Under the pieces are notes generated by a model. The model saw nothing but the letters and a program-made list of their open reading frames with translations. It was not told the DNA's origin and did no database searches. The translations under genes were made by a program, and so were the position numbers. Positions 27,613 to 54,080 of a stretch of 64,000 bases of DNA are shown piece by piece (the stretch's first letter is position 1; each line of letters begins with the position of its first letter). The stretch is from Parvularcula sp. (lineage in GTDB: Bacteria > Pseudomonadota > Alphaproteobacteria > Caulobacterales > Parvularculaceae): NCBI GenBank assembly GCA_002704915.1, contig PAIP01000068.1, positions 124,001 through 188,000 on the forward strand, in the 5' to 3' direction.

Positions 27613-28503
27613 TTATCCGAAATAAAGTTTCAACGCCGTCTGAGACAGACGCCACCGGTCTTCCGGTTTTGGCGCCCATCGGCGTAATCGTTCAAGTGCG
27701 TAGTCGAATGTGATGCGCCCCTCATACCCCACAAACGGACAGTCGCTTCCCCACAAAAGCCGTTCCGTTCCCATATTGGCGACAAGGTGGTTGGCGATCG
27801 TATCAGCGATCTTGTCTGCGTCTCCATCCGGGTCGGTTCGCCAGGCCGCTGTGCCAAGAAGACGAAATCCGCCGGATAGCTTGACCCAAACATTCCCTCT
27901 TTCGGCGGCACTCAATATGGCCTTGTAACCAGGGCAATTAACGCCCAGCTTCGGATCGGGATGGCCGAAATGGTCTATGACAACCTTAACGCCGCTTTCT
28001 TCCAGCGCCTCGAGCACGGGCGGCAATGACGGGCCTTCGATAGCGACATGAACATGCCAGTCGAGATCTCGCACCCGTCGAAAGAGAAGATTGTATTCCT
28101 CGCTGCGGAAGTCCGGCAATTCCGTCATGCGCGCGAGCTGTAGCCGGATGCCGATAATACCGTCATCATTCATGCGCTCCAGCGAATACCGGTCGGTGGC
28201 TGGCGAAACGATGGCGGTGCCGCGCAAGCGCTTATGCTTGCGCAGTTCGGAAATCATGTAGTCATTGTAAAAGCCGGATATGCTCAGGCCTGAAATCACA
28301 CCAAAATGAATGCCGTATTCGTCCAGCAGTGCGAGATAATCATCGGCGGTGAATGAATAGTCTGTGCGTGTCCAGGCGTTGCTGCTGAGCGGCATATCTT
28401 GCTGGAAAATATGGGCATGACAATCGACGACAGGCGGCAAGTCAACATGGGCATCGCCCGTTGAGGTTTGCGCCGCAGCATCAGTGGAAACATGCAAAGT
28501 CAT
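27613..28503 (-). CDS. Amidohydrolase-2 family hydrolase, copy 1
   Basis: 296-residue TIM-barrel metal-dependent hydrolase or decarboxylase (PF04909 type, as in 2-pyrone-4,6-dicarboxylate hydrolases). Metal-site motif VDCHAHIF near residue 28, barrel strands ending in HVHVAIEGPS and VVIDHFGHPDPKLG, and the C-terminal LLWGSDCPFVGYEG with the conserved Asp. No signal peptide. Its ATG overlaps the stop of the three-domain SnoaL gene (ATGA), making it the last gene of the operon from 31529. A lactone or ring-cleavage product is a plausible substrate; nothing more specific can be read. Confidence 0.9.
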   Translation of the reverse strand: MTLHVSTDAAAQTSTGDAHVDLPPVVDCHAHIFQQDMPLSSNAWTRTDYSFTADDYLALLDEYGIHFGVISGLSISGFYNDYMISELRKHKRLRGTAIVSPATDRYSLERMNDDGIIGIRLQLARMTELPDFRSEEYNLLFRRVRDLDWHVHVAIEGPSLPPVLEALEESGVKVVIDHFGHPDPKLGVNCPGYKAILSAAERGNVWVKLSGGFRLLGTAAWRTDPDGDADKIADTIANHLVANMGTERLLWGSDCPFVGYEGRITFDYALERLRRWAPKPEDRWRLSQTALKLYFG

Positions 28504-30536
28504 TTAGAAGCCGAATCCTGTGATGCTTTGGCTGAAGGCGATCCGCCAGACTCATCGTGACGTGACGAGATCGACCAGTCGAGTTTGAAATCTGGCGTAC
28601 GGCCGCTCACAGGATTGTCAAAATGAAACCCCATGGGAGCAATTTCCGGATAGGGCGCGAAGGTCACGCCGCGCAACGGACCATCCGGCGGATATTTTGC
28701 TATGCTCTCCGGCGTTGGCGCAAAACGTTGCGCAGAACCTTCTTCGACAGCCGCCCAACCGCCCGTGTAGCTGGCGAGAAAAACATAATCGAGATCCATG
28801 CCCGCAATTTTCCAGACACCGTCTTCCAGCTTCACCTGGTTTTCATAAATGCCGGAGATGTAGGAGCCGTCGCCGTCAAGCTGGCTATTGAATTGGAAAA
28901 GCCGCAGGCGAATCTGGGCGTTTTTCCCATCTTGCGCGACGGTGACGAAGGGCTGCGTCTTTTGATGAATCGCGAGAAATGTCGGCGAACGTCCGCGATC
29001 CCCGTACCGCGAAAATAGCGACCCGCGAACCCGCTCGCGGCCGTAATAGGCGCCGATATAAGACAGCTCTTTCCAACCGTCCTCTGAAAAAAGGTCCGCG
29101 GTGTCGTCCCAACGGAATTCGTCAATGTAATATCCATAGGCATTGGAAACATTTTCGGCGCCGTCATAGGCCTTCGCGATAGCGACTTTGCGCTCAAGCG
29201 CATCGAGACGTGCCGGCGCTTCCGGTTTTGTGGCGCGCTCGACATGAGCGGAGAAAGAAATAGCAGGGCTCGCCTGTTCCGGATATTCGGCGCTAGCGAG
29301 CAACGACGCCGAGGCGCTCTCGCTCGCCTCTTCATGGGCCGGCAACAAATCGCGCGCCCAGCCTATCTCGTAATCTGCCGCAAAACGCGGATAGAGCTTC
29401 ACGGACTGGATTTTCCAGACGCCTCCCTCTTTCACATAGGTATTTTCAAAAATACCGAACGCCCAGGCTGACGCTCCGCCATGCTGGCCTGTCATCTGCA
29501 GCTCGAACCCGCGCGCAGAGGCTTTATTGTCGCCGTTCAACGTGACAATCGGGTCAAGTTGCAGATGGTCGTTGAGCTCGCCTTCTTTGAGTCCCGCGTC
29601 GCCGAGCGCGAAGAACCGTTGGCGAATAGCCGCTTTGCCGCTGTACGCCCCTTCGCCGGCGACATCAAAGGTCGCCTTTTCAGCGAAGAGATCAGTCACA
29701 TTCTCCCACATCTTCCGGTCGACATAATATCCATAAGCAGCCTGGAGATTCTGAATGGCGCTTTCATCGAGAAGAGCATCGGCGGTTGCAGCCGCTTCTG
29801 AAAGGCGGTCGTCTGCGTCACCTGCCGGCAGTGCAAGCGCTTTGGCGCTCTGTGGCGTCGGAGAACCGGCCTCCTCGGGCGTGTAGTGATAGGGCGTCAG
29901 CGGAACAGTGTCGGCTATGTTGCGCCACCCTTTGTCATAAGGGCCCGCATATTGAGGGTAATAATGCAGTTCAGAGATTTTCCAGACGCCATCTTCAAGA
30001 ATGTAATCGTTTTCGTAAATGCCGCCTTTCCAAAAAGCCCCCTCTCCATAATGGCCTAACATCGCAACTTCATGCCAGCGGCCTTGCGCCGTCGTTCCAT
30101 CCTCGGAAAGCGTAATGACCGGCGATAAAAAAAGACGGACATTCAACCTGTCCGGCGGAAGGCCGTCGGCGCCGCCCCCCATCTCCGCACGAAAGTGATT
30201 ATAGAGCGTGTCGCCCCCCCAAATCTCAACTCCCGGAGCAACATATCTCCCGTTATCCGCGAACAGCTCGCTCATTGCTCTCCACTCGCCCGCTTCCGCA
30301 TATTGTGCGAATGCATGCTGCAGTCGTTTTATGTCGCGAATTGCTGCGGCGTTTTCCACTTCAGCGACAAGTCGAGCGCCCCGTTCCAGATCATCGGCGC
30401 TCCAGGCTGACCCCTCAATTGGCGTTCGGCCTGCGGGCTCATCCTGAAGCGAACAGGCGCCAAGGCAAAGCGTGAGAACGCCGACCAAACCGGCAAACCA
30501 CAGCGGGGCGAGATTGTGAACGCTTCGTATCAGCAC
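28500..30536 (-). CDS. Lipoprotein with three SnoaL/NTF2-like domains, copy 1
   Basis: 678 residues. Lipoprotein signal with lipobox LGAC (Cys28), so it is exported and membrane-anchored. Three NTF2-fold units can be traced, each starting with a helix pair (IRDIKRLQHAFAQYAEAGEW; IQNLQAAYGYYVDRKMW; NVSNAYGYYIDEFRWDD) and ending in a strand pattern GIYENDY...EDGVWKI, at about residues 60-205, 245-410 and 465-615. A C-terminal segment ends HFDNPVSGRTPDF. SnoaL-like folds include scytalone dehydratase, LinA and ketosteroid isomerase, but are rarely triple or secreted. A second copy lies at 51942. The gene is six bases after the substrate-binding lipoprotein gene and overlaps the amidohydrolase. 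Function unknown. Confidence 0.85.
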   Translation of the reverse strand: MLIRSVHNLAPLWFAGLVGVLTLCLGACSLQDEPAGRTPIEGSAWSADDLERGARLVAEVENAAAIRDIKRLQHAFAQYAEAGEWRAMSELFADNGRYVAPGVEIWGGDTLYNHFRAEMGGGADGLPPDRLNVRLFLSPVITLSEDGTTAQGRWHEVAMLGHYGEGAFWKGGIYENDYILEDGVWKISELHYYPQYAGPYDKGWRNIADTVPLTPYHYTPEEAGSPTPQSAKALALPAGDADDRLSEAAATADALLDESAIQNLQAAYGYYVDRKMWENVTDLFAEKATFDVAGEGAYSGKAAIRQRFFALGDAGLKEGELNDHLQLDPIVTLNGDNKASARGFELQMTGQHGGASAWAFGIFENTYVKEGGVWKIQSVKLYPRFAADYEIGWARDLLPAHEEASESASASLLASAEYPEQASPAISFSAHVERATKPEAPARLDALERKVAIAKAYDGAENVSNAYGYYIDEFRWDDTADLFSEDGWKELSYIGAYYGRERVRGSLFSRYGDRGRSPTFLAIHQKTQPFVTVAQDGKNAQIRLRLFQFNSQLDGDGSYISGIYENQVKLEDGVWKIAGMDLDYVFLASYTGGWAAVEEGSAQRFAPTPESIAKYPPDGPLRGVTFAPYPEIAPMGFHFDNPVSGRTPDFKLDWSISSRHDESGGSPSAKASQDSASK

Positions 30537-30542
30537 TGGAAA

Positions 30543-31529
30543 TTACCGTTCTTCAAGCACTTCGCGAATGATGCTGTCGTCGATTAGAATCGAAAGCTCT
30601 TCGCGCGACCGCGCAGGGCGGTCATCGATCCTTGCGAGCCATTTTTCTTCCGCCTCAAGGACGTCGAGCAGGTCGGAGACCATTGTCGCCGGATAGCCAT
30701 GATGTTTCCATGACCGCTTGATAAGATCGAGGTCATAGCCCGTCGCTTCATGAACCAGCGGCCAGGCGAGGCTTGGATCCTCATGGATCAACTCCGTCGC
30801 CTCGACAATGGATTTCACGAATTGTTTGATGCGCGCCCGCTTTTGGGGATCGGCGAGATTGCCGGCGGTCGTGTTGAGATTAAAAAGCTCGCGATAGATG
30901 TGACGTCCGTCGAATTCCACGGCGTCATCACCGATTGCATGGGCCGCATTTTCAATTTCCGGCTCCCAGATCGTCACCGCATCCACATCTCCGTTCACAA
31001 GCGCTTTCGGCATGTCGCTCAATGGAAGAATGCGCACAATTTCAACATCAGCCTCGCTTAATCCCACCGACTTCAGCATATTGTGCAGAAAATAGGCGGA
31101 CGAGGTGTTGGGAATCGTCGCGATGCGTTTGCCTTTCAAATCTTCAAGAGAAGTGACGCCAGCCGATTTCCGCGCCACGATACGGTAATAGCCCTCGGCC
31201 ACTGTCATGATGATCCGCAGATCGGGATGGCGAACGGAATAGCGCAACCCTTGCGTTTCCGCATGCGTGGCCACATCAGCGATGCCAGGCTCGCCATACC
31301 CCGGAATGCCCGGCTCGCCGACAAGATTGGGAATGCCGCCCATCTTGACGGTCGATTCACCCGGATAGACCTGATCCGACGCCAGCAGAACAGGCGCGAT
31401 CTCAAAGGTCACCTTGTTGCCATGAACTCTGAACGGCTCTTCCGGCCCGGAAGACGACGCACAGGCGCCGAGCGTGAAGAAACACGCCGCAATAAGAGCG
31501 CGCCAGCCGTTCTCCAGCTTCAATTGCAT
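30543..31529 (-). CDS. Orphan ABC-type substrate-binding lipoprotein (NMT1/SsuA-like)
   Basis: 328 residues with a lipobox LGAC (Cys23). The body has the periplasmic-binding fold of nitrate/sulfonate/thiamine-precursor binding proteins: YYRIVARKSAGVTSLEDLKGKRIATIPNTSSAYFLHNML, then VEIVRILPLSDMPKALVNGDVDAVTIWEPE. No ATPase or permease gene is nearby, so it is an orphan, or serves as a sensor or delivers its ligand to the next proteins. First gene of an operon with the three-domain SnoaL lipoprotein and an amidohydrolase, which is an unusual partnership for this family. Confidence 0.85.
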   Translation of the reverse strand: MQLKLENGWRALIAACFFTLGACASSSGPEEPFRVHGNKVTFEIAPVLLASDQVYPGESTVKMGGIPNLVGEPGIPGYGEPGIADVATHAETQGLRYSVRHPDLRIIMTVAEGYYRIVARKSAGVTSLEDLKGKRIATIPNTSSAYFLHNMLKSVGLSEADVEIVRILPLSDMPKALVNGDVDAVTIWEPEIENAAHAIGDDAVEFDGRHIYRELFNLNTTAGNLADPQKRARIKQFVKSIVEATELIHEDPSLAWPLVHEATGYDLDLIKRSWKHHGYPATMVSDLLDVLEAEEKWLARIDDRPARSREELSILIDDSIIREVLEER

Positions 31530-32807: not shown

Positions 32808-32815
32808 AGATCGGC

Positions 32816-33967
32816 TTAAGGTCTGAAAGCCGTCCAGGCGATGTGGCGTACGCCGCCATTCATCTGCATGGGATCGTTTTTGCTGTTGATGTAATAGACG
32901 GTCAGCAGTTTTCCCGGCTCGATCTCAATGACCCTTGGATAGCCCACATCCCAACTGCCGCCATCATCGCGCAGGATCATTTCCGCCCCCCAGGTGCAGC
33001 CGTCATCCTCGCTGACCTTGTAGCGAACACCCGACGGCATGGTGCGATAGCCGTAAACACAGACAATGCGCCCGTCGCGCATGGGAACGAGATCGCCCGG
33101 CGCGCCGATATCGTTGACGCGCGATGAAAAGCTCCAGCTTCTGCCGCCATCAAGGCTTTCATAAATCTCCGTCCAGATGACGCTGCGCGCATCGCGCTGA
33201 TATCGCAGCGACGCAATCACTTTTCCGTTCGGCAGAACTACGATGCGCGGATAGAAATGCGGCAAAGGAGAGTAAGGCGATTTCGACACATAAAAAGGAG
33301 ACGGCGGACGCTCCTCCGTCATGAAGGAGAGATAAAGCCAGTCCACGCCGTTGGGCGATCCATAGACCAGCGGGCGCGGCGACAGAGCGTCCGGCGAAAC
33401 GGTCTGACACCCAAGGAGATGCACGCCGTCTTCGCGCGTCGCATATATCGGCGAGCCAAAATTGGTGAGCGATGGCAGGCTGTATTGCGGCAGGATTATC
33501 GGCTCGCGCCAGGTCTCGCCCCCGTCGGTCGAGGCGCGCAGCCAGCTTTGCGCCTCACGCCCGAAAAGCGAGGGCACGCCGCCGCCCATGATCAGCGTGT
33601 CGCAGCTTTTGAAATCGAGCAGCGGCAGGTCCGACCAGTCGGCGGCTTCGCCTTTCGGAAAGTCCGCCGGGCTTTTCCAGGCCATATCGAAGACTTCCTG
33701 AACGCTCGACGCGTCCCAGCTCCGCCCGCCATCTTTCGAACGGATTGTGACGATATGCGCAGGCTTTTGCTGGATCTGGCCATGGTCGACATCGTCGGCG
33801 CCCGCATAATTGTTCCGCACGCGCTTGAAACTTGCGACGATATCGCCATTCCCGGTCTTCCAGAGACCGCAATAGAACGGCCAGCCGCAATATTCGTTTT
33901 CGTTGCGATAGACGATTCCATGTTCGGCTCGGGACACCCGTTGCGGCGGTTTGAAACTGTCTGTCAT
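32816..33967 (-). CDS. BNR/sialidase-like beta-propeller, copy 1, no leader peptide
   Basis: 383 residues. Asp-box motifs of the sialidase-type propeller are visible four times: SKDGGRSWD, STDGGETWR, SLDGGRSWS and SEDDGCTWG. The N-terminus MTDSFKPPQRVSRAEHGIVYRNENEYCGWPF begins where the mature parts of its two neighbours begin, so unlike them it has no signal and should stay in the cytoplasm. The C-terminus RDDGGSWDVGYPRVIEIE...GGVRHIAWTAFRP is shared by all three. Twelve bases behind the second copy, same operon. Activity is unproven; sialidase is only the fold name. Confidence 0.85.
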   Translation of the reverse strand: MTDSFKPPQRVSRAEHGIVYRNENEYCGWPFYCGLWKTGNGDIVASFKRVRNNYAGADDVDHGQIQQKPAHIVTIRSKDGGRSWDASSVQEVFDMAWKSPADFPKGEAADWSDLPLLDFKSCDTLIMGGGVPSLFGREAQSWLRASTDGGETWREPIILPQYSLPSLTNFGSPIYATREDGVHLLGCQTVSPDALSPRPLVYGSPNGVDWLYLSFMTEERPPSPFYVSKSPYSPLPHFYPRIVVLPNGKVIASLRYQRDARSVIWTEIYESLDGGRSWSFSSRVNDIGAPGDLVPMRDGRIVCVYGYRTMPSGVRYKVSEDDGCTWGAEMILRDDGGSWDVGYPRVIEIEPGKLLTVYYINSKNDPMQMNGGVRHIAWTAFRP

Positions 33968-33979
33968 GGGGCGCAGCCT

Positions 33980-35227
33980 TTACGGGCGGAATTTAGTCCA
34001 GGCGATGTGGCGCACGCCGCCATTCACCTGCACGGGATCGTTTTTCAGATTCATGTAATAGATAGTCATCAACTCACCCGGCTCGGTTTCGATGACGCGC
34101 GGATAACCGAGATCCCAGCTCCCGCCGTCATCGCGCAGGATCATTTCCGGCCCCCATGTTTCGCCCTTGTCCTCGCTCACGCGGTATCGGATGCCTTGCG
34201 GGGCGATGCGATAACCGTAAACGCAGACGACGCGCCCATCGCGCATGGGAACGAGATCGCCCGGCGCGCCCCAGTCATTGACGCGGGAGAGATAACTCCA
34301 TGTGCTCCCGCCGTCCTTACTCTCGTGAATCTCCGTCCAGATCACATTGCGCGGGTCGCGCTGATAGCGCAGGGAGGCGAGCATATGACCGCCTTCAAGA
34401 ATAGTGACGCGCGGATAAAAATGAGGCGCGGGGGCGAAAGGGGAGCCGCCGGGATAAAATGGCGATGGCGGACGTTCTTCCGTAACGAAGGATAGGAAGC
34501 GCCAGTTCTTGCCGTCGCTCGAGTGATAGACGAGCGGACGCGGCGACAAGGCTTCCATCGAAGCGGTGTTGAGCCCCAGAATATGAACGCCGTCCTCGCG
34601 CGTCGCATACATGGACGAACCGAAGGCCGTCAGCGAAGGCAGATCGTATTTCGGGATCAGCATGGGCCGGCGCCATGTACGTCCGCCGTCGGTCGATGCG
34701 CGCATCCACGCCTCGCCGCCGGGCGAGAAGAGACGCGGAATGCCCCCGCCAATCAACAGCGTGTCCTTACTGAAGAAATCGAGCGGCGCCTCGTCAGACC
34801 AGTCCGCCGCGCCGCCTCCCGGAAGATCGCTTTCCTCCCGGATGTTCATGTCGAACACTTCCTGAAAACTTTCCGTGTCCCAGCTCTCGCCATTGTCGCG
34901 CGAGCGAATGGTCCAGAGCTTGCCCCGGTTCTTCGTCAGATTGTTGTGATCGACATCGTCATAGGCATTGTATTCGGTTGGAATGCGCTTGAAGCTCGCC
35001 AGCAAGGACCCGTCAGCCGTCTTCCAGAAGCCGCAATAAAACGGCCAGCCGCAGAATTCTTTTTCGTTGCGGTAAACGGCGCCATGCCTGACGCTCGCAT
35101 CTTCGCGAGGCGCTATGAAGCGTTCATTAATGTCCGCGCTCCGGCGCATAGTCGGCGCCTGCGTGGCGCAGGAGGCGAGCGCCGTCGCTCCCAGTCCCGA
35201 AATAAGCACGTCGCGGCGTTCTATCAT
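33980..35227 (-). CDS. BNR/sialidase-like beta-propeller, copy 2, exported lipoprotein
   Basis: 415 residues from ATG 35227; the frame is open to 35314 but the leader MIERRDVLISGLGATALASC starts here, combining twin arginines with a lipobox LASC (Cys20), so a Tat-routed lipoprotein is likely. The body repeats the layout of copy 1: KEFCGWPFYCGFWKTADGS, Asp-boxes SRDNGESWD, STDGGRTWR, SKDGGSTWS and SEDKGETWG, and the end RDDGGSWDLGYPRVIETE...GGVRHIAWTKFRP. Very similar to the downstream copy 1, so a tandem duplication. Divergent from copy 3. Substrate unknown, probably a glycan or glycoside outside the cytoplasm. Confidence 0.85.
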   Translation of the reverse strand: MIERRDVLISGLGATALASCATQAPTMRRSADINERFIAPREDASVRHGAVYRNEKEFCGWPFYCGFWKTADGSLLASFKRIPTEYNAYDDVDHNNLTKNRGKLWTIRSRDNGESWDTESFQEVFDMNIREESDLPGGGAADWSDEAPLDFFSKDTLLIGGGIPRLFSPGGEAWMRASTDGGRTWRRPMLIPKYDLPSLTAFGSSMYATREDGVHILGLNTASMEALSPRPLVYHSSDGKNWRFLSFVTEERPPSPFYPGGSPFAPAPHFYPRVTILEGGHMLASLRYQRDPRNVIWTEIHESKDGGSTWSYLSRVNDWGAPGDLVPMRDGRVVCVYGYRIAPQGIRYRVSEDKGETWGPEMILRDDGGSWDLGYPRVIETEPGELMTIYYMNLKNDPVQVNGGVRHIAWTKFRP

Positions 35228-35460
35228 GGCGTTTCCATTTAACCGGTGCGAATTCGACTCTTTTGGCCCTCGCAGCAAAACCGGGCTTTGACGGTCTTCT
35301 AGCCGCATAGCCAAGAGAAATACTCATTGGTGCAGCGCGAAATTTGATCCAAGAGGCGGAGAATTTGGATGATCGGGGCGTTTGTCCTGTCTTTGGTTGC
35401 AAGACTAATATGCTTCGCACAAGGATAAGCCGCCATCAGAACAAGATTGGGAGACGCGTT

Positions 35461-36714: not shown

Positions 36715-36740
36715 GCAACTGACGATGCCGAATACATGAA

Positions 36741-36772: not shown

Positions 36773-36797
36773 GAGGATCGGCGCAAAGTCGCCACAT

Positions 36798-38005: not shown

Positions 38006-38020
38006 TCAAGCAATGTTGTT

Positions 38021-45132: not shown

Positions 45133-45137
45133 GGATA

Positions 45138-46628
45138 ATGCGCAATATGCCTCACGGCGACGGAGCTTCTTCTCTTCAGCGCGGAAAACTGTCGCGAAAT
45201 GACCTGATCCGCGACAAGGCTTATATCGACGGGAAATGGATTGAGGCCGATGGCAGCGCTTCTATCGATGTCGATGACCCGTTCACCGGCGAGATCATCG
45301 GCAAGGCGCCGTCGGTCTCCGAAGATCAGACGAAAGCTGCGATCTCTTCGGCGGAGAAAGCCTTTCCCGGCTGGGCGAAAGAGCTGACCCGCCATCGCGG
45401 CGCGATCCTGAGGCGCTGGTTCGATCTTGTCATGGATCATCAGGAAGATCTCGCGCGGCTCATCACGCTCGAAAACGGCAAACCGCTGAAAGAGGCGCGC
45501 GCGGAAGTCGCTTACGGCGCCGGCTTTATCGAATTCTACGCCGACGAAGCGGGCCGCATGTTCGGCGAGACTATCCCCTCGCCCGTCGAAGGACGCCGGC
45601 TGCTGGTGGAGCCCGAGCCGATCGGGGTTTGCGCCGCCATCACCCCCTGGAACTTTCCCCTCGCCATGCTGACGCGCAAGGCCGCGCCTGCGCTCGCGGC
45701 GGGCTGCACTATGGTCGCGAAGCCTGCAAGCCAGACGCCGCTTTCGGCTTACGCCCTCGCCGTGCTCGCCGAAGAAGCGGGGCTGCCGGCGGGGGTGCTC
45801 AATGTCATCACCGGCAAGGCCGGCATGATCGGCGGTCTCCTGACCTCATCGCCGGTGGTGCGCAAGATAAGCTTCACCGGCTCGACTGAGATCGGCGCGA
45901 AGCTGATGGAAGCCTCGGCGCCGTCGATCAAACGTCTGTCGCTGGAGCTCGGCGGCAATGCGCCGCTCTTAATCTTCGATGACGCCGATCTGGAAACGGC
46001 CGTCGAAACCGCACTTGTGGCGAAATTCCGCAATAGCGGCCAGAGCTGCATCGCCGCCAACCGCATCTATGCGCAAAAGGGAATTTATGAAGCCTTTCTG
46101 AAAGCTTTCGCAAAACGTGTGAGCGCCCTCGCATTGGGCGACGGGTTCAATGAAGCAACCGATATCGGTCCGCTGATCGACAAAGCTGGCGTCGCCAAAG
46201 TGGAAGAGCATCTCGACGACGCCGTCGCGGGCGGCGCAACCATTCTCTCCGGCGGTAAATCTTCCGGCGGTCAGTTGATGCCGCCGACCCTGTTGCGCGA
46301 CGTCGCGCCGGACGCGCTGCTGACCCGAGAGGAAACCTTCGGCCCCCTTGCCGGAGTGATTCCGTTTGCGGCGGAAGAAGAGGGCGTTCGCTTCGCAAAT
46401 GACACGCCCTTCGGTCTCGCCGCTTATCTGTGCTCGGAAAACCCGGCGACCATCGCGCGCGTGGGCCGCACCATCGAAAGCGGCATGGTCGGGATCAACA
46501 CCGGGCTTATCTCCACTGCGGTCGTTCCTTTCGGCGGGGTCAAAATGTCCGGCCTCGGCCGCGAAGGCTCTTCGCACGGCCTCATGGAATATCTCAATCT
46601 CAAATATCTCTGCCACGCAGGTCTTTAG
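45138..46628 (+). CDS. Aldehyde dehydrogenase, succinate-semialdehyde dehydrogenase type
   Basis: 496 residues. Catalytic base Glu270 in LSLELGGNAP and nucleophile Cys304 in SGQSCIAANRI; the latter sequence together with ITPWNFPLAMLTRKAAPALAAGC and EVAYGAGFIEFYADEA is the GabD-type signature. C-terminal PFGGVKMSGLGREGS. Members oxidise succinate semialdehyde or related C4-C5 semialdehydes with NAD(P). In this operon, before BKACE, an acid semialdehyde from ring or chain cleavage is a likely substrate. Eleven bases separate it from BKACE. Confidence 0.92.
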   Translation: MRNMPHGDGASSLQRGKLSRNDLIRDKAYIDGKWIEADGSASIDVDDPFTGEIIGKAPSVSEDQTKAAISSAEKAFPGWAKELTRHRGAILRRWFDLVMDHQEDLARLITLENGKPLKEARAEVAYGAGFIEFYADEAGRMFGETIPSPVEGRRLLVEPEPIGVCAAITPWNFPLAMLTRKAAPALAAGCTMVAKPASQTPLSAYALAVLAEEAGLPAGVLNVITGKAGMIGGLLTSSPVVRKISFTGSTEIGAKLMEASAPSIKRLSLELGGNAPLLIFDDADLETAVETALVAKFRNSGQSCIAANRIYAQKGIYEAFLKAFAKRVSALALGDGFNEATDIGPLIDKAGVAKVEEHLDDAVAGGATILSGGKSSGGQLMPPTLLRDVAPDALLTREETFGPLAGVIPFAAEEEGVRFANDTPFGLAAYLCSENPATIARVGRTIESGMVGINTGLISTAVVPFGGVKMSGLGREGSSHGLMEYLNLKYLCHAGL

Positions 46629-46639
46629 GAGACCCCGCC

Positions 46640-47575
46640 ATGCGCAAAAGCAAAAAGGTCATCATCACCTGCGCGCCCACAGGCTCCATCCACACGCCAT
46701 CCATGTCGCCTTACTTGCCCGTAACGCCGGATGAGATCGCGGCGGCTTCGATCGAGGCGGCGGAAGCCGGCGCCGCGATCCTGCATCTTCACGCCCGCAA
46801 CCCGGAAGACGGACGCCCGAGCCCCGCGGCGAAAGACTTCATGGCTTTCCTGCCGCGCATCAAGCAGGCGAGCGACGCCGTCATAAACATCTCCACCGGC
46901 GGCAGCGCCAATATGTCCCTCGACGACCGGCTCGAAGGCGCCCATGCGGCGCAGCCGGAAATCTGTTCGCTCAATATGGGCCCTCTCATCTTCGACTTCA
47001 GCGCCGCCGGCGCGCGTGTGGAGAAATGGGCGCATGAGTGGGAGCGGGAGTATGTGGAAACCTCCAACGACCGCATCATGTATAATTCGAACAGCTTCAT
47101 CGAACGCATCATGCGCGAGGTCGGCGAGGCCTACGGCACCCGCTTCGAATTCGAGTGCTACGATATCGGCCACCTCTACACGCTGGCACATTTCGCCGAC
47201 AAAGGCCTGATCAAGCCGCCCTTTCTCATTCAGGGCATATTCGGCATTCTCGGCGGCATCGGCGCGGACCCGCGCAATCTTTCCCACATGGTGACCATCG
47301 CCGACAGTCTCTTCGGCGAGGATTATGTGTTTTCGGCTTTCGCGGCGGGACGCGCCCAGATGACCTTCTGCAATCAGTCGGCCCTGCTCGGCGGCAATGT
47401 CCGCGTCGGGCTGGAAGACAGCCTTTATATCGGACGCGGTGAGCTGGCGAAGAGCAACGCCGAACAGGTGCGTAAAGTGCGCACCATCATCGAAGCGCTG
47501 GGGCTTGAAATCGCAACGCCCGATGAGGCCCGCAAATTGCTCGACCTCAAAGGCGCCGACCGCACGGCGTTTTAA
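46640..47575 (+). CDS. BKACE family enzyme (DUF849, beta-keto acid cleavage)
   Basis: 311 residues; ATG 46640 follows AGGAG. TIM-barrel zinc enzyme that condenses a beta-keto acid with acetyl-CoA and splits it into an acetoacetyl-type product and a new acyl-CoA. Zinc-ligand motif HLHARNPEDGRPS (His49, His51), then VINISTGGSANMSLDDRL, CSLNMGPLIFDF, FECYDIGHLYTLAHFAD and GGNVRVGLEDSLYIGRGE, the block that binds the CoA and keto-acid side. The longer open frame from 46430 overlaps the ALDH gene and is rejected. Ends six bases before the convergent cupin gene. Confidence 0.92.
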   Translation: MRKSKKVIITCAPTGSIHTPSMSPYLPVTPDEIAAASIEAAEAGAAILHLHARNPEDGRPSPAAKDFMAFLPRIKQASDAVINISTGGSANMSLDDRLEGAHAAQPEICSLNMGPLIFDFSAAGARVEKWAHEWEREYVETSNDRIMYNSNSFIERIMREVGEAYGTRFEFECYDIGHLYTLAHFADKGLIKPPFLIQGIFGILGGIGADPRNLSHMVTIADSLFGEDYVFSAFAAGRAQMTFCNQSALLGGNVRVGLEDSLYIGRGELAKSNAEQVRKVRTIIEALGLEIATPDEARKLLDLKGADRTAF

Positions 47576-47581
47576 ACGCCT

Positions 47582-48499
47582 TTAGTCTTTAAGCTCCGGC
47601 GGCATCGGATACTCATCGGCGTTCAGCACCCAGCCTTCCATCTTTGAGAAGTCCTCACGCGGGGGCGAGAAGATGTCGATCAAAAGATTGACGCCCGGAT
47701 CGATCGCCGCCGAGGTGTGAATGGCTTTGGGCGGAATCACCGTCACCGACGGGGCGCCGCATTTTTCATGATCGTCATCGCGCCATTCAGCGATGTTGGC
47801 CGTCCACGGCCAGCGCAGATGGTGTTCATACTCCCCGCCGATAACCAGCGAGCATTGCTCGAACTCGTCATGATGGTGCGGCGAAAGTTTCGACGGATCG
47901 CGCGGCCCGTTTTGCGGCGGAAAGACATTCACCATGAAAGTGGTGCAGCGCCAGATCTTGCCGAAACGCCCTTCCTCTTCGGACACGTCGAGGCTGTAGC
48001 TGCGGATCTTGTAGCCTTCCGGCGGCGCCGGCCACGGCTTAAAAGGCGGAATATGCGGATGCGGCTCGCGATAGCCATCCGCATTGGCGGTCTTGTCCGC
48101 AAGGTCGCGGGACTGGCTCGTGAACAGGCGAATGACCTGTCCCGCGCCGGTGATCTCAATCGTGCTGTCGCCGGGCGGCACGATGGTCAGGGTGAAGCCG
48201 TCGATGTCCTTCGTTTCGCCGCCCGCAGTGACGCGCGCGCTCGTTTCCGCATCGGGCAAGATCAGCACATATTCATCAGGCTGGTTTTTGCGCTCGAAGA
48301 CAGCGCCGGCTTGCGCTTCGGAAACCGCCACGATGGGATTCTGGCCGCGCGCCATCCATGTCTTCGCCTTGTCTGTCTCCTCCTGCGGGGCCATGTCGTA
48401 AAATCGCGCATAGACGCCGGGGGAAAAGGGCTGGCCGCTTGCCGACGCCGGCGCGCCGCTGGTGGAAAGACGGGAGCGGGGATCGACTGTCTGACTCAT
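47582..48499 (-). CDS. Double-cupin protein, function unknown
   Basis: 305 residues, no signal. Two cupin barrels can be placed: about residues 55-125 (VSEAQAGAVFERKNQPDEYVLILPD ... GFTLTIVPPGDSTIEI) and 165-280 (SPHHHDEFEQCSLVIGGEYEHHLRW ... VTVIPPKAIHTSAAIDPG). The second carries the likely metal-binding histidines (HHHDEFEQ, later H in AIHTS); the first lacks most, so only one active site is expected. Last in the minus-strand run MBL-MFS-aldolase-cupin. Could be an isomerase or dioxygenase. Confidence 0.8.
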   Translation of the reverse strand: MSQTVDPRSRLSTSGAPASASGQPFSPGVYARFYDMAPQEETDKAKTWMARGQNPIVAVSEAQAGAVFERKNQPDEYVLILPDAETSARVTAGGETKDIDGFTLTIVPPGDSTIEITGAGQVIRLFTSQSRDLADKTANADGYREPHPHIPPFKPWPAPPEGYKIRSYSLDVSEEEGRFGKIWRCTTFMVNVFPPQNGPRDPSKLSPHHHDEFEQCSLVIGGEYEHHLRWPWTANIAEWRDDDHEKCGAPSVTVIPPKAIHTSAAIDPGVNLLIDIFSPPREDFSKMEGWVLNADEYPMPPELKD

Positions 48500-48546
48500 A
48501 TCATCCTCTATTCTTTTTAAGCGCCCTGCTATTGAGACGCCTTGAT

Positions 48547-49305
48547 TCAGTTTGTCCGGCTGTCAGCGACGGCCGCCGCAGCCGCTTTGGCGAAAATCGT
48601 GGCGTCATTGCTCACCATGACCAGCGAATAGCCCATCGATCGATAGAGCCTGGCGTCTTCGAACGTTGCTGCGGCGGCGCCGGAAAGCTTGCCCGCCGCT
48701 TTGGCTTTCTGCGCAACCTCAGCGGTGATTTTGCGCACTTCCGGATCCGAAGCCGGTTTTCCACTGGAAAGATAAAGGTCCCCATGCCCGATGAAGACGC
48801 CGTTCACCGTCGGCACTGAAAGGTAGTCTTCTATTGAGCCAAGGGCGTCCCAATCCTCTAACTGCACCATCCTCAGGCACTGCTCGTCGCCCCGGCGCAG
48901 ATAATCCTCCATGGGCGCAAGGCCCCAGCCGCCCGCGCGCGAGGTCGTTCCAAGACCGCGCTCTCCTTTGGGACTGAAGACCATTTGCCGGGTAAGCCTC
49001 TCTGCTGTTTCAACGCTCGTCATGCGCGGCGCCAAAAGGCCGTCCGCGCCCGCGTCAAGCAGCCGCTGAATGCATGAGCCGGTGTGATCGGGCAGACGCA
49101 CCACGGCGCCCATATCGCAGGCCTGCGTTGCAAAAATAAAATCATAGACCTGATCGAGACTGTGAGGGGCGTGCTCCATATCGATGACAAGAAAATCGAA
49201 ACCCGCCCTGCCCAGCATCTCCACGGTCGCCAGACTCGGAATCTTCAGCCACGTGCCCAAAAGGCCGCCGCCGCGCTCCGCGCAAAAATCAAGAAACTGC
49301 TTCAT
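48547..49305 (-). CDS. HpcH/HpaI family aldolase
   Basis: 252 residues from ATG 49305; the frame is open to 49419, but MKQFLDFCAERGGGLLGTWLKIPS is where family members begin, though the ribosome-binding site is weak. Class II-type aldolase that splits 4-hydroxy-2-oxo acids into pyruvate and an aldehyde. Motifs: FLVIDMEHAPHS (Glu44, catalytic His45), RLPDHTGSCIQRLLDAGADGLLAPRM, MVQLED (metal Glu) and GVFIGHGDLYLSSG (metal Asp). Lies between an MFS carrier and a double cupin; the aldehyde produced could feed one of the dehydrogenases. Confidence 0.9.
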   Translation of the reverse strand: MKQFLDFCAERGGGLLGTWLKIPSLATVEMLGRAGFDFLVIDMEHAPHSLDQVYDFIFATQACDMGAVVRLPDHTGSCIQRLLDAGADGLLAPRMTSVETAERLTRQMVFSPKGERGLGTTSRAGGWGLAPMEDYLRRGDEQCLRMVQLEDWDALGSIEDYLSVPTVNGVFIGHGDLYLSSGKPASDPEVRKITAEVAQKAKAAGKLSGAAAATFEDARLYRSMGYSLVMVSNDATIFAKAAAAAVADSRTN

Positions 49306-49449
49306 GCTGATAATCCATAAAACATATACCGACCCGAATGAGGCGGACACTTTATCGAAACGGTCCCAGGAGTTGACATCACCGGCACTAGCTGCGCCAG
49401 AAATGATCATTGCGATCATATTGTCGGGACGGCCATATCGGTTAGCGTC

Positions 49450-50766
49450 TCAGCCGCCCAAGGAAGCGGCGCCTTTATCGAGTTGACGAAGATCGCGACC
49501 GACCGTTTCCGGCAATAATATCGTCGCAATGAGCGCGCAGATCACGCCAATGACGCCCATTGCTGTCATCGACACATTCAAAGCGACGCTCGCAGCGAGA
49601 ATCGCCACGCCCTGGATGAAGATGCCGCTGGCGGCGCGACCGAAATTATAGGCGAAGGCCTGGCCGGAGGCGCGCACTTCAGTGGGGAACAGTTCAGTAA
49701 AATACGGGCCGAAGGAACCGTAAAGTCCGAACTGGCAAAAAGCCTGAATGATGCCCGCCGGAATAAGCGTATAGGCGTGACTGCCAAGCGGCGCGCAAAG
49801 ATAGAAGATGGTTGCGAGAATAAAACCCACGCCGAAAAGACGAAAGGCCATGCGGCGCCCGAAACGGTCGCTGAAATACGCGTTTGCAAGAAGACCGAAA
49901 AAGGCGCCAACGCTGTTTAGGAGAACGAAGATTCCCGCCGTGGAGGCGGAGATGCCGCGCTCATTTTGCAAGAACGTTGTCAGATAACTTGAGACCGAAT
50001 ACCCCGCCCCTTGCGCGCCGACCGCCAGCAGAGCCGCAAGCGCCGTGACACGCAGATATTTCAGACGGAAAATTTCAAGCGGCGTCACCGACCTTTTTTC
50101 CGCGTCCCGCTGCGCCTTGCTTTCCTTGAAGACTTCCGAATCGTCGTCACCGCGCCGCACGAAGAAAATCAGGATGGCCGGCAAAAGCCCCACCCAGAAG
50201 ACAACCCGCCAGCCGAATTCGAGCGGGAAAATCGCCACGAACGGACCTGCAAGAAGCGCAGCGAGCCCGGACCCCACCGCAACGCCGCTTTGAACGGAGC
50301 CCAGCGCTTTGCCGCGGTCTTTGCGGGCGACGATCTCGCCCAGGAGCACTGCGCCTACGGCCCACTCCGCGCCGAAACCGACGCCCTGCAAGACGCGCAA
50401 GATCAAAAGCTGCTCATAGCTTTGCGCGAAGCCGGAAAGAAAGGAAAACATCGAAAACCACAAGATAGTGAGCTGGAGAATGCGCACGCGGCCGAACTTG
50501 TCCGCCAGCCAGCCGCCCATCCAGCCGCCGATGGCCGAGGCGAAATAACTTGCGCTGGCCACCGCCGCCGCCTGCGCCAGCGTAATGCCGAAGGCCATGA
50601 TGATGATCGGAATGAGATATTGATAGACCAGCGCATCCATTGCATCGAGCGTCCATGCAACGGAACAAGTCCAGAAGACGCGACGGACTTTTCTGTCAGC
50701 TCTCTGGTACCAGGAAAATGGTCCGCGTCCGATTGGTTCTTCAAGGGTGTCTGTCACGCTCATCAA
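49450..50766 (-). CDS. MFS permease, SHS/AAHS-like acid transporter
   Basis: 438 residues, twelve helices. TM1 region VAWTLDAMDALVYQYLIPIII places an Asp-x-x-Asp pair where carboxylate carriers have it; motif A GGWLADKFGRVRIL; TM4-5 LQGVGFGAEWAVGAVLLGE; second-half motif YFSDRFGRRMAF. Long N-terminal cytoplasmic tail with SWYQRADRKVRR. Similar to aromatic or organic acid symporters (JEN/SHS or AAHS). Situated 28 bases after the metallo-beta-lactamase-fold gene and upstream of the aldolase, so uptake of the acid degraded there is likely. Confidence 0.87.
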   Translation of the reverse strand: MMSVTDTLEEPIGRGPFSWYQRADRKVRRVFWTCSVAWTLDAMDALVYQYLIPIIIMAFGITLAQAAAVASASYFASAIGGWMGGWLADKFGRVRILQLTILWFSMFSFLSGFAQSYEQLLILRVLQGVGFGAEWAVGAVLLGEIVARKDRGKALGSVQSGVAVGSGLAALLAGPFVAIFPLEFGWRVVFWVGLLPAILIFFVRRGDDDSEVFKESKAQRDAEKRSVTPLEIFRLKYLRVTALAALLAVGAQGAGYSVSSYLTTFLQNERGISASTAGIFVLLNSVGAFFGLLANAYFSDRFGRRMAFRLFGVGFILATIFYLCAPLGSHAYTLIPAGIIQAFCQFGLYGSFGPYFTELFPTEVRASGQAFAYNFGRAASGIFIQGVAILAASVALNVSMTAMGVIGVICALIATILLPETVGRDLRQLDKGAASLGG

Positions 50767-50794
50767 TTAGGCCTATATCTTTTTATGTGAGATT

Positions 50795-51748
50795 TTATTG
50801 CGCCGTTTGCTCTTCAGCGATGCGTTTTTCCAGCCCGGCTTCCGCCTTTTCGGCATAAGCCGCACAAGCGCCGGAATCAATGAACGGATTCGTGTCGGGA
50901 TTTTCAGACCTGGCCGCAAGTTTCTCTTTTACGCCAAAAGAAAGCGGCGAAGGCGTAAGCAATATATCGCAAGGCAATGCGGCGACGGTTTGAATTGCAT
51001 TGCGAAAGGTTTCTATACGCCCCTGATAATCTGCGCCCCCCGTAAAGCGGAATTCGGGCGCGGAACGCGTGGAAAAACTGTCCGCAAAGACTATGTCAAG
51101 GCAACCTTCATCTTCGCAGGACCGCCATGTCCAGGCGACGCTGCCCGGCGTATGAGCCGGCGTGTAGTGAGCGGTCAATTCGATTTCACCTGCGCTCACG
51201 GTTGCGCCATCCGCGATAATCTGAACCTCCGGCACGGGCGGGAAAACATTTTCTACAAGACCGCGCTGAGGATCGTCCTCGGTGGGTCTTCCCTGTTCCA
51301 GCGCTTCGGCGCCGCGCGCGCTGGCGGCCACTTTGGCGCCGGTAGCCCGCGCCAGGGCGGCGATGCCGCCAGCGTGATCGAAATGCGCATGCGTATTTAC
51401 AATGAGCTTGAGATCGGCAAGCGAAAAGCCCAGCTCTTTTATGTTGTCCGCGATCTGCTGCGCGGTCTGGGTCATGCCGCCGTTAACCAGAACGAGGGCG
51501 TCATCCGAAGCGATGAGAACGGAAGAGATCATCGCCGTGCCCACATAATAAGTGTCGCCGTAAATCTGAAACGGCTCAGACGGCTCGTTCAGTCGCTCGC
51601 AGAAGCCGCATTCATGGGGCGGATCCGGCTCTACGGCCACTTCACGAAACGAACTTTCACCGGTCGAGGCGCAAGACACGCTCACCGCACAGGCAAAGCC
51701 GAGCCATATCGATTTTGACGAGAAAAAGATTCGACGTTTCAGGGCCAT
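50795..51748 (-). CDS. Subclass B3-like metallo-beta-lactamase-fold protein with altered zinc site
   Basis: 317 residues from ATG 51748 (GGGA upstream; the frame is open to 51871). Signal-like N-terminus, then CGFCERLNEPSEPFQIYGDTYYVGTA as in B3 enzymes. Zinc ligands His120, His122, Asp124 and His125 in THAHFDHAGG and His199 in TPAHTPGS are present. The last B3 ligand (His263 in standard numbering, within the LLTPHP motif) is Ser267 here: DILLTPSPLSFG. The cysteine pair flanking that region in L1-type proteins is also kept (PCD, GACAAY). So the fold is B3-like but the second metal site is incomplete; beta-lactam hydrolysis should not be assumed. It may act on a lactone or ester instead. Confidence 0.85.
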   Translation of the reverse strand: MALKRRIFFSSKSIWLGFACAVSVSCASTGESSFREVAVEPDPPHECGFCERLNEPSEPFQIYGDTYYVGTAMISSVLIASDDALVLVNGGMTQTAQQIADNIKELGFSLADLKLIVNTHAHFDHAGGIAALARATGAKVAASARGAEALEQGRPTEDDPQRGLVENVFPPVPEVQIIADGATVSAGEIELTAHYTPAHTPGSVAWTWRSCEDEGCLDIVFADSFSTRSAPEFRFTGGADYQGRIETFRNAIQTVAALPCDILLTPSPLSFGVKEKLAARSENPDTNPFIDSGACAAYAEKAEAGLEKRIAEEQTAQ

Positions 51749-51941
51749 TTTTAAGTCCCGCAAGGCTTGAGCGTGACACAGCCCAAAGCATGTTTTTATT
51801 GAAGGCGACCCGGCGTTTCGCACCTTTATGCAGTCGAGCGCCCTTCCCCTCCCGGCCTGTAGGCAAGCCATGTCGAGGTTATCAACAGCACCATCTCACC
51901 GCTTGCCCTGAGAGGTAGGCAAATTTGCCTTACCCTCGGAA

Positions 51942-54080
51942 CTATTGGCGATTTTCCTCGCGTTTCACCTCAACGCCGTCAATTTCCGGGCCGGTCGGCG
52001 GCATTTGATAACCATGCTCCGTCAGGCGGGCTTCAGGCAGTTTCTCGCAAGGCACGCAATCCGGCCAATAATGCTCGGGCGTCCGCCCGCTCACGGGGTT
52101 TCGATAGTGAAACCACATGGGCAGGATGCCGGGCCAGTCGACAGTTTCGCCTGCTCCCCCACGGAACCCCTCCTGGCGCTCGCCAAGTTCAGTCAACAGA
52201 ACATCGGGCGGATATTTATCGAGCAACGGGCTGCGATATGGTTCGGCGCCTGCTTCCGGCTCTTTCGCCGCCGCCCAGCCGCCTTCCCAGCTCGGCGAGG
52301 CGAAATAATGCTCGTCAATGGTCAGCGTCCAGAAACGCCATATGCCGTCTTCGAGCACCAGTTGGTCATTGGGATACATTCCGCCATGAAAGCCGCCCAT
52401 GTAAAATCTTGACGGGGCGTCCGGATCTTTCGAGGTCCGCGGCTGAAAGAGGCGCGTGCGAAGATTGGCCGAACGCCCGTCATGGGACACGTGAATTACA
52501 GGCTGCGTGCGCCAGTGGAAGGAGACTGCGGGACGCATTTCACGGGGCGGTCCCCACATGGCGTTGGCGGCCCCCATGATCCGATCGCGACCCATGTAAT
52601 ATCCTGCAAATGGGGATTGCTTGTTGCCTTCTTCCGCAAAAATGGAGGAGAGCGCCGTCCACTGAAAATCATCGAGGTAATATCCGTACGCAGCGGAAAC
52701 ATTGACCGCGCCGTCATAAGCCGCCGAGCGCGCAAGGCGCCGGCGCGCTTCGTCAAAACGCTCCGCAACATCGCCTGTTTTCCCGGCGTCATCATCCCCT
52801 GCAATATCGCCCGTAAGGTCCGAGACGGCGGCAATCTTGAAATCACCTGTCTCCACAGCCCGCCCCGTCGCCGGGTTGGGTCCCAGAAAAGCAGGCAGCA
52901 CCGGCCGGGACCGCCCCATGTCGCCGCCATCGCCCCAGCCGACAGCATAGTCGGCTTTCATCAGGGGGTAGAGGCGCAACTCTTTCAGCTTCCACAGACC
53001 GTTTTCCTTGACGAAACGGTTGCGGAAAACGCTGATTCCCCATTGCGCGGTTCCCGCCTGTGCATCGCCAGTCATGGCGAGCTCAATGCCCCGGCTTTCC
53101 GCTTCATTCCCTTCAGGCGATATGTTGACAAGAGTGTCGAAAATCGGCCGCTCATTCAGCTCGCCATGTTCAAGCCCGGCCGAGCCCATGCGCTCCATCG
53201 CCCTGCGCACGCCATCGGGCCCCTTGAACACGCCAACGCCGCCAATCTCTACAGCGCTGTCCTCAGCGAAGAGATCGACCACGTCATCCCACATTTTACG
53301 GTCGACATAATAGCCATAGGTGTTCTGGATATTGCGAACAGCATCCTCGTCATTCAACGCGGCTATGCGTTGTTCCAGACTGTCCAGGGTTTCATCGGTT
53401 TCAGGCGCAGGGCCTTGCGGCTCGGGGATCGGGACGCCCGTTTCATCAATCGTAAAGTGATAGGGAATGATCGGCAGGTCTTCACCGCCGACATTCGCCC
53501 AGCCCTCGGCATAACCGCCTTCATATTGCGGATAGTATCGCATGACAGCGATCTTCCAGAGGCCGCCTTCGCGCACATAGTCGTTTTCATAGAGGCCGCC
53601 TTCAATCCAGGCCCTTCCTTCGCCGTCACCTTTGAAAGCGAGACTCATCCAGCGCGCTTCGGCGCTTTCTCCATCGACAGCAAGATTGACCAGCGGCTCA
53701 TCGATGAATTCCGTATTCAGCGCGCCTGGTCCGAGACCGCCCACTTCAGCGCCGCGCCCCTCCAGCCAGTCAAGAATGGCGCCCCGTCCTTTGATCTCGG
53801 CGTCTCCCCACCGGATGACCGCGCCATCCGAAAAAAGGGCGGCCATGTCATTCCAAAGTCCATATTGCTGGTACTGGGCGTAGCGTCGTTGCACATCTTT
53901 CACCTGGCGCAGCGATTCCACACGCCCCACATCTCGGGCGAGGGCGTTCAGATCCTGAGACGCCCCCTCTTCGATCTGCGGTTCCGATTTTGCTTCCCCG
54001 GGCGTCTCTGCGCCGCAACCGGCGAGCAAGAGAATGAGAGACAATGCCGTCAACGCCCGGCCCAGTCTTGCGGCGGCCAT
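51942..54080 (-). CDS. Lipoprotein with three SnoaL/NTF2-like domains, copy 2
   Basis: 712 residues. Lipobox LAGC (Cys22). Three domains as in the copy at 28500: about residues 50-195 (VKDVQRRYAQYQQYGLWNDM ... GGLYENDYVREGGLWKIAVM), 235-395 (VRNIQNTYGYYVDRKMWDDVVDLF ... VFRNRFVKENGLWKLKELRLYP) and 465-625 (NVSAAYGYYLDDFQWTALSSIF ... NDQLVLEDGIWRFWTL). The tail has WFHYRNPVSGRTPEHYW, the same FHxxNPVSGRTP block as copy 1, plus a CVPC pair. Clearly a paralogue with unknown activity, 193 bases upstream of the B3-fold gene on the same strand. Confidence 0.85.
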   Translation of the reverse strand: MAAARLGRALTALSLILLLAGCGAETPGEAKSEPQIEEGASQDLNALARDVGRVESLRQVKDVQRRYAQYQQYGLWNDMAALFSDGAVIRWGDAEIKGRGAILDWLEGRGAEVGGLGPGALNTEFIDEPLVNLAVDGESAEARWMSLAFKGDGEGRAWIEGGLYENDYVREGGLWKIAVMRYYPQYEGGYAEGWANVGGEDLPIIPYHFTIDETGVPIPEPQGPAPETDETLDSLEQRIAALNDEDAVRNIQNTYGYYVDRKMWDDVVDLFAEDSAVEIGGVGVFKGPDGVRRAMERMGSAGLEHGELNERPIFDTLVNISPEGNEAESRGIELAMTGDAQAGTAQWGISVFRNRFVKENGLWKLKELRLYPLMKADYAVGWGDGGDMGRSRPVLPAFLGPNPATGRAVETGDFKIAAVSDLTGDIAGDDDAGKTGDVAERFDEARRRLARSAAYDGAVNVSAAYGYYLDDFQWTALSSIFAEEGNKQSPFAGYYMGRDRIMGAANAMWGPPREMRPAVSFHWRTQPVIHVSHDGRSANLRTRLFQPRTSKDPDAPSRFYMGGFHGGMYPNDQLVLEDGIWRFWTLTIDEHYFASPSWEGGWAAAKEPEAGAEPYRSPLLDKYPPDVLLTELGERQEGFRGGAGETVDWPGILPMWFHYRNPVSGRTPEHYWPDCVPCEKLPEARLTEHGYQMPPTGPEIDGVEVKREENRQ

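Follow-up and report, generated by a model that had tools for sequence, protein, structure and literature searches.

The stretch analysed here (the window) comprises 64,000 nucleotides of contig PAIP01000068.1 from Parvularcula sp. and contains, on its minus strand, two genes (P0001 and P0002) which each encode a predicted protein of three successive NTF2/SnoaL-like domains; proteins of this kind are called triples below. The positions of both genes, their domains and their neighbours are presented in Table 1. The initial annotation described the two as paralogous lipoproteins with three SnoaL/NTF2-like domains each, and this description holds. Both open reading frames are confirmed, and the proteins are 39% identical across P0001 residues 21–650 (E ~1e-121; 36, 37 and 40% for domains 1, 2 and 3, respectively). 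A lipobox is found by eye in both (LGAC in P0001, LAGC in P0002), and each protein contains three stretches of the Pfam domain SnoaL_4 (PF13577), with 247 bits (E 4e-74) for P0001 and 234 bits (E 3.2e-70) for P0002 at a curated cut-off of 24 bits.

AlphaFold models were built from 38-row alignments. The P0002 model has a mean predicted local distance difference test (pLDDT) value of 91.3 and a predicted template modelling (pTM) score of 0.91; the values for P0001 are 83.7 and 0.85. In both models the helix-then-strands NTF2 pattern occurs three times, with cores of high pLDDT, and the models match NTF2 folds in structure searches (Foldseek and VIA for P0002, VIA only for P0001). The three-domain NTF2 fold, and the family which carries it, are as good as certain. 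Concerning the sequence blocks, YGYYVDRKMW was first reported as running through the successive domains; it is exact in domain 2 of both proteins only, while domain 3 has variants of it (YGYYIDEFRW and YGYYLDDFQW) and the sequence in domain 1 is divergent (FAQYAEAGEW and YAQYQQYGLW). The C-terminal NPVSGRTP motif is indeed shared by the pair but is not peculiar to it: its N, S, R and P (N661, S664, R666 and P668 in P0002 numbering) are invariant in 53 triples, in which N460 and W602 are conserved as well, and a weaker form is found near the C-terminus of the lignin-dimer enzyme LdpA (HPVLGK) and of other single-domain relatives.

The best PDB sequence matches of both proteins are the LdpA chains 8abv/8abw, 8abt and 8abu (E 5e-21 to 1e-18 for P0001, 2e-17 to 4e-17 for P0002). 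LdpA is described as a cofactor-free γ-formaldehyde lyase of erythro-1,2-diguaiacylpropane-1,3-diol (erythro-DGPD), acting in β-1 lignin-dimer catabolism (PMC11476836, PMC12997858). With the P0002 model, LdpA is also first in Foldseek (E 1e-10) and in VIA (Z 13.9, 191 residues, 4.0 Å, the LdpA chains being tied). The title of 8abu is 'NaLdpA mutant H97Q in complex with erythro-DGPD'; chain index 97 is the His of LLDHF, and the domain-3 His of the triples aligns with it. The active-site comparison covered H97 and the Asp of the dyad, and several further LdpA alignment columns differ in domain 3. LdpA of Sphingobium SYK-6 and Novosphingobium aromaticivorans (PDB 8abt–8abw) shares with the triples the NTF2 fold, the Asp of YGYYxD, a His at the catalytic position (H97 in NaLdpA), the GxYEND and GVWKI blocks, and the C-terminal tail (HPVxGK/NPVSGR). 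It differs from them in being a single domain of about 240–250 amino acids with no signal peptide by eye, whereas the triples have three domains, are mostly exported and contain one dead and one variable site. PcfL, the phenylcoumaran γ-formaldehyde lyase of N. aromaticivorans, is an LdpA homologue (44% identity; PMC11323797); its description indicates that the LdpA family accepts other lignin linkages, and its likeness to the triples runs via LdpA. BaiE, LinA and scytalone dehydratase have the NTF2/SnoaL fold of the triples but are single-domain proteins, and their sequence relation to P0001 and P0002 is marginal (E 0.008–0.9). In dehydratase-type proteins of this fold the His–Asp dyad is described as the acid–base pair (PMC11476836).

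The triple is not a lone oddity: it belongs to a family of which 53 or more members are non-identical. A contig scan with P0002 as query, in which only exact short peptide patterns counted, yielded 29 loci; going by record title, 15 of these are in sphingomonads and the remainder in other alphaproteobacteria, Nonomuraea, Pseudonocardia, Micromonospora, Microbacterium, metagenome-assembled genomes (MAGs) of Gammaproteobacteria, Acidobacteria and Clostridiales, and one further bacterium. Full open reading frames were obtained from 24 of the loci L081–L106 (n=26), and 10 of the 24 new rows were removed (identical, contained, or the same across the last 400 residues); L026 and L043 were excluded from the alignments as the same loci as L070 and L072. 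The 42 triples used for the domain tree include L040 and L034. The set of 53, some of which are closely related to each other, excludes both L034 triples and L040, whose N-terminus is apparently frame-shifted. No three-domain NTF2/SnoaL architecture is described in the titles and abstracts returned by literature searches on it and on NTF2/SnoaL proteins in lignin degraders, nor did these contain a characterised three-domain orthologue. The triple is a real architecture within a known enzyme superfamily which is undescribed in the literature searched.

The state of the three sites follows the order of the domains. At the columns of the LdpA Asp and His, domain 1 has neither residue in any of the 53 triples (Asp 0/53, His 0/53). 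Domain 2 has the Asp in 52 and the His in 19, with Arg at the latter column in 28, and domain 3 has the His in 53/53 and the Asp in 50/53. The tail of domain 1 (PYHFTxDExG) has an invariant His and Gly (53/53) although the domain lacks the dyad, which argues that the dead domain is retained for something, its tail being among its best-kept parts. In a tree of 126 domains from the 42 triples and 11 single-domain relatives, the first domains (D1, 42) form a clade with support 1.0 and the second domains (D2, 42) a clade with 0.93, and all third domains (D3) fall within one clade (1.0) together with one single-domain protein of SYK-6; support for some nodes near D3 is weak (0.02–0.3). Since each domain position has a clade of its own, the domain order has a single origin which predates the spread of the family. 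The full-length tree separates a P0001-type clade (n=13, support 1.0) from the other 40 triples. Both types are found side by side in SYK-6 (L066), in a Sphingomonas MAG (L023) and in the genus of the window; a same-genus genome (G022) also carries both paralogues.

BaiE, LinA and scytalone dehydratase are homotrimers. In VIA, the alignments of LinA and BaiE to the models take in almost the complete chains (160–161 of the 167 residues of BaiE 4leh_A, and 140–150 of 146–153 for the LinA chains), and, judged by the first and last aligned residues, their ends fall in the next domain. The ranges are 49..389, 48..382 and 237..606 for LinA and 37..394 for BaiE in P0002, and 250..609, 250..598 and 249..605 for LinA and 238..635 for BaiE in P0001. 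The alignments of the ketosteroid isomerases listed are confined to one domain. Ends in the next domain fit tails swapped between neighbours as in a trimer, and cyclic closure would then place the domain-1 tail at the domain-3 pocket. We consider it likely that the three domains are packed as a covalent pseudo-heterotrimer.

An unfused counterpart may exist. In SYK-6, secreted single-domain relatives are encoded by three genes (A, B and C) with end-to-start overlaps of 4 bases (L067, 6432–8742), and the adjacent A-B-C order is present in 16 of the 18 triple-bearing genomes of the family-level sample described below. At the His column A has Trp (16/16), whereas B and C have His (17/17 and 18/18, the extra B and C counts coming from a second place in one genome); the Asp is present in all. 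The design with one subunit without His thus exists as three separate chains, too. In the domain tree A branches as the sister group of the D1 clade (0.80), and B and C are placed, with weak support, close to D3. Gene A (E 1e-80) also occurs in genomes without a triple: it is present in 8 of the 30 which have LdpA and in 0 of 20 which lack LdpA as well, where all 30 LdpA-only genomes were covered and the 20 were taken from the head of a list of 349. The A-B-C set is therefore not tied to the triple, although triple-bearing genomes are where it occurs most often. In the window's own genome a C gene of this kind is absent; the best match there, at 37% identity, is to an LdpA-like single-domain protein. 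We read A-B-C as a putative heterotrimer, to which the triple would correspond in fused form, with either order of origin. Beside the SYK-6 trio lies a member of a conserved family which by eye is NTF2-like and doubled (L067, 3503–6435) and which is also found in the window (10112–11020, minus strand). The window protein has no Pfam match and no PDB sequence match, and one SYK-6 member runs on into a propeller-like part.

Looking at the family as a whole, 35 of 39 complete N-termini look exported in a crude hydrophobicity test. Four have no export signal (L020 of Nonomuraea, L025 of Pseudonocardia, L040 and L045), some of their start sites being perhaps wrong. Lipid anchoring was at first taken as a hallmark of these proteins; as a family trait it is rejected. 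Clear lipoboxes, by eye, are confined to members from the window's genus, with possible ones in L027 and L035, and most other members have plain signal peptides; a regular-expression lipobox match in L018 lies within an ordinary signal peptide. Two members carry further modules. The Micromonospora member has a bacterial immunoglobulin-like domain and two CBM_5_12 modules, and the Clostridiales MAG member (L034, 4446–10097, 1883 amino acids) combines S-layer homology (SLH) domains with six SnoaL_4 stretches, that is, two complete triples in tandem.

Triples are accessory genes. They are present in 3 of 40 genomes of a near-relative sample (own included; all three among the 24 of the own genus, one as a contig-edge fragment), in 3 of 299 genomes of a phylum sample (own included) and in 18 of 397 genomes of a family-level sample which, judged by coordinates, includes SYK-6. 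SYK-6, a lignin degrader, has nine matches spanning at least 600 query residues and one single-domain relative of domain 3. In the family-level sample an LdpA relative (E 1e-40 or better) is found in 48 of the 397 genomes, among them all 18 with a triple, each at E 5e-109 or better. The distribution (18/18 with a triple vs 30/379 without; Fisher test, 1e-18) and the count by genus (7/7 vs 9/89; 1e-6) are uncorrected for kinship. An RPE65-family enzyme, of the lignostilbene dioxygenase family, is present in 18/18 triple-bearing genomes and in 195/397 overall (2e-6). One contig (35) of the window's own genome encodes both a NOV2-type lignostilbene dioxygenase, which scores 857 bits against a cut-off of 650, and an orthologue of LdpA (E 8e-97 to 8abt). 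At 2461–6829 of this locus (L077) the LdpA orthologue lies near the dioxygenase, a short-chain dehydrogenase/reductase (SDR) and, by eye, an amidohydrolase-like gene; it is a likely β-1 lignin-dimer locus of the organism.

Elsewhere, the window encodes a flavoprotein of the vanillyl-alcohol oxidase (VAO)/p-cresol methylhydroxylase (PCMH) family with E 1e-145 to 8s7t, 3e-112 to VAO and 9e-105 to PCMH, and relatives of it and of its cytochrome c are found in SYK-6 (L074) and in a same-genus genome (L080). The PinW/PinV pair, which these two resemble, is described for pinoresinol catabolism (PMC12607616). There are also two pyrroloquinoline quinone (PQQ)-type alcohol dehydrogenases, one of them above the TIGR03075 cut-off.

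Concerning the immediate neighbours, P0001 lies between an amidohydrolase and an orphan solute-binding protein, while P0002 is followed downstream by a B3-fold protein, a major facilitator superfamily (MFS) transporter, an HpaI-type aldolase and a cupin-like protein. The last has 11 marginal matches to PDB sequences (E 0.034 or worse). The B3-fold protein has relatives in L029 and L075 and may be a lactonase or a β-lactamase. Two of the three BNR_2 genes have, by eye, twin-arginine-like signals. The protein related to methylenetetrahydrofolate reductase might serve one-carbon units from demethylation or deformylation. A comparison of neighbourhoods, proposed at the outset, was made over 42 clustered loci, some overlapping and some without a triple, and its raw counts concern common families, without an estimate of background. 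The most frequent companions are SDRs (19), TonB receptors (17), AraC regulators (13), amidohydrolases (12) and aldehyde dehydrogenases (12), followed by BNR_2 (9), MFS (9), HpaI (7), cupin-like (7) and β-keto acid cleavage enzyme (BKACE, 6) genes. In the actinobacteria Nonomuraea and Pseudonocardia, too, an amidohydrolase and BNR_2 pair lies directly upstream of the triple.

Table 1. Positions of the two triples, their parts and neighbouring genes in the window
Feature	Position	Strand	Remarks
P0001, three NTF2/SnoaL_4 domains, predicted exported lipoprotein, 678 aa, GTG start	28500..30536	-	P0001-type subfamily
P0001 lipobox LGAC, residues 25–28 (Cys28)	30453..30464	-	By eye, end of signal peptide
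P0001 domain 1, ~residues 53–233	29838..30380	-	Neither Asp nor His of the LdpA type; His217 of the tail invariant across the family
P0001 domain 2, ~residues 239–425	29262..29822	-	Asp273 and His324 retained
P0001 domain 3, ~residues 440–652	28581..29219	-	Asp472 and invariant His524 (LdpA H97 equivalent)
P0001 C-terminal tail motif NPVSGRTP, residues 641–648	28593..28616	-	Sequence
P0002, three NTF2/SnoaL_4 domains, predicted exported lipoprotein, 712 aa	51942..54080	-	Outside P0001-type clade
P0002 lipobox LAGC, residues 19–22 (Cys22)	54015..54026	-	By eye, end of signal peptide
P0002 domain 1, residues 44–224	53409..53951	-	Dyad gone (Gln72, Glu124); tail His208 invariant
P0002 domain 2, residues 226–412	52845..53405	-	Asp260 retained; Arg311 in place of His
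P0002 domain 3, residues 438–672	52065..52769	-	Asp470 and invariant His522 (LdpA H97 equivalent)
P0002 C-terminal tail motif NPVSGRTP, residues 661–668	52077..52100	-	Sequence
Amidohydro_2 protein	27613..28503	-	4-base overlap with end of P0001
NMT1/SsuA-like solute-binding protein	30543..31529	-	6 bases upstream of P0001
Subclass B3 metallo-β-lactamase-fold protein	50795..51871	-	Downstream of P0002; NF033105 306.9 bits, cut-off 240
MFS transporter	49450..50766	-	Best NCBIfam model aromatic acid/H+ symport, below cut-off
HpcH/HpaI-type aldolase	48547..49419	-	Downstream of P0002
Conserved cupin-like protein (by eye)	47582..48499	-	No Pfam match
Aldehyde dehydrogenase, succinate-semialdehyde dehydrogenase-like	45138..46628	+	Below cut-offs
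BKACE	46640..47575	+	NF053538 488 bits, cut-off 430
Three BNR_2 (sialidase-like propeller) cluster genes	32816..36714	.	Beside triples elsewhere too
TonB-dependent receptor cluster member	38021..40570	-	Cluster often beside triples
Methylenetetrahydrofolate-reductase-like protein	31932-32807	+	Far below metF cut-offs
Cytochrome c (CBB3 type) overlapping VAO/PCMH-type flavoprotein	13529-15660	-	PinV/PinW-like pair

Based on LdpA as the nearest solved structure, the His and Asp of domain 3, the neighbouring genes and the co-occurrence with LdpA, the triples are probably catalytic, eliminating enzymes. That their substrate is of lignin or lignan type is about evenly poised. This narrows the first proposal, in which dehydratases, isomerases or ligand-binding proteins of the periplasm deal with an imported compound, towards an LdpA-like elimination with lignin/lignan-type aromatics as substrates. 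In this scheme the TonB receptor would import a phenolic dimer or oligomer (a phenolic arylpropane or a similar lignin/lignan-type compound), and periplasmic oxidases would prepare it. Without a cofactor, the His and Asp of domain 3 would next remove the benzylic oxygen; the resulting quinone methide would lose formaldehyde or a proton. Chemistry of this kind is proposed for LdpA (PMC12997858), and PcfL likely follows it as well. The degenerate domain 1 would be retained as a scaffold and for its invariant tail His, which it would contribute to the live pocket of domain 3. Uptake of the product would fall to the MFS transporter, and its breakdown to the SDR, aldehyde dehydrogenase, HpaI-type aldolase and BKACE encoded next door. 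Taken as a whole, the reading of the triple as an exported covalent pseudo-heterotrimer with one obligatory active site, performing an LdpA-like acid–base elimination on imported lignin/lignan-type compounds in the periplasm, is one which we hold to be as credible as not.

Several observations weigh against this reading. LdpA is absent among the best 50 VIA rows listed for the P0001 model (Z 18.5 to 16.5), and the identity to LdpA in structural alignments is just 23–26%. The domain-3 His and its neighbours read HWRTQP in the triples and HFQLQD in LdpA, so the chemistry of the triples may differ from that of LdpA, and the domain-3 Asp is replaced by Thr in 3 of the 53. In the domain tree the LdpA group forms a sister pair with D2 (0.98) rather than with D3, which has the best-kept dyad. 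The exchange of tails is deduced from first and last aligned residues alone, and the P0002 rows of LdpA, 3f7s, 3gzr and 3soy end in domain 3, unlike those of LinA and BaiE. To these is added the kinship within the co-occurrence counts, and we know of no BNR_2 or HpaI/BKACE genes in lignin-dimer pathways.

A non-catalytic role is also to be weighed, in which the triple would be a periplasmic binding or presenting protein, a covalent trimer of pockets which passes an aromatic ligand to a transporter or an enzyme. The dyad-less domain 1, the patchy His of domain 2, the solute-binding protein next to P0001, the lipid anchoring within the window's genus and the designed NTF2-fold small-ligand binders among the structure matches (by title) all fit such a role. 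A pure binder would not be expected to keep the acid–base residue of LdpA; the invariance of the domain-3 His, together with the nearly complete Asp and the conserved N460, W602 and C-terminal N, S, R and P, therefore makes it unlikely. A carbonic-anhydrase-like use of the domains is highly improbable. The ι-carbonic anhydrases have tandem NTF2-like domains, and 7c5x gives a long single-chain match to the P0002 model in Foldseek (533–553 columns, the 553-column match being the point in its favour), but the arrangement is rejected with a TM-score of 0.11–0.17, a root-mean-square deviation above 30 Å and 9–11% identity, and the residues follow the LdpA pattern.

The triples could instead be eliminating or isomerising NTF2 enzymes for other compounds, e.g. 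phloroglucinol-type polyphenols (flavonoids, condensed tannins), where the opening of a benzylic C–O bond is plausible too. The linked BKACE reaches 488 bits on the model for 3,5-dioxohexanoate:acetyl-CoA (NF053538), and the triacetate-cleaving enzyme in a phloroglucinol study of Clostridium scatologenes is reportedly of the BKACE type. The SDR and iron-containing alcohol dehydrogenase neighbours and the Clostridiales MAG member with SLH domains are also in keeping with such substrates, and the cleavage of triacetate (3,5-dioxohexanoate) is described as a step of phloroglucinol degradation in that organism (PMC10470551). On the other hand, no dihydrophloroglucinol cyclohydrolase was identified, the available part of PMC10470551 naming no family for this enzyme, the BKACE is present in just 6 of the 42 loci, and the co-occurrence is with LdpA; we therefore regard these substrates as a doubtful, minority option.

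The preferred reading of the triples as LdpA-like eliminating enzymes suggests an unstudied enzyme family acting on plant aromatic compounds outside the cytoplasm. According to a 2026 review, SYK-6 has 62 NTF2 homologues whose substrates are unknown (PMC12997858). The NTF2 lignin lyases described in the literature consulted, LdpA and PcfL, have another architecture than the triples, and the nine SYK-6 triples with export signals form a class of distinctive one-live-site design. The extracytoplasmic step of lignin breakdown is usually credited to oxidases. Should the triples attack lignin-derived oligomers prior to uptake, they would provide this step with enzymes that work independently of oxygen. 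More tentatively, and rather unlikely as a whole, they may be exported oxygen- and cofactor-independent lyases which rearrange or cut lignin/lignan-type oligomers with a single obligatory site made from the domain-3 pocket and the domain-1 tail, fixed in some lineages to carbohydrate-binding modules or to the S-layer. One enzyme fold would seemingly exist in three forms (a homo-oligomer, a set of three genes and a single chain), its sites having been lost in a fixed order.

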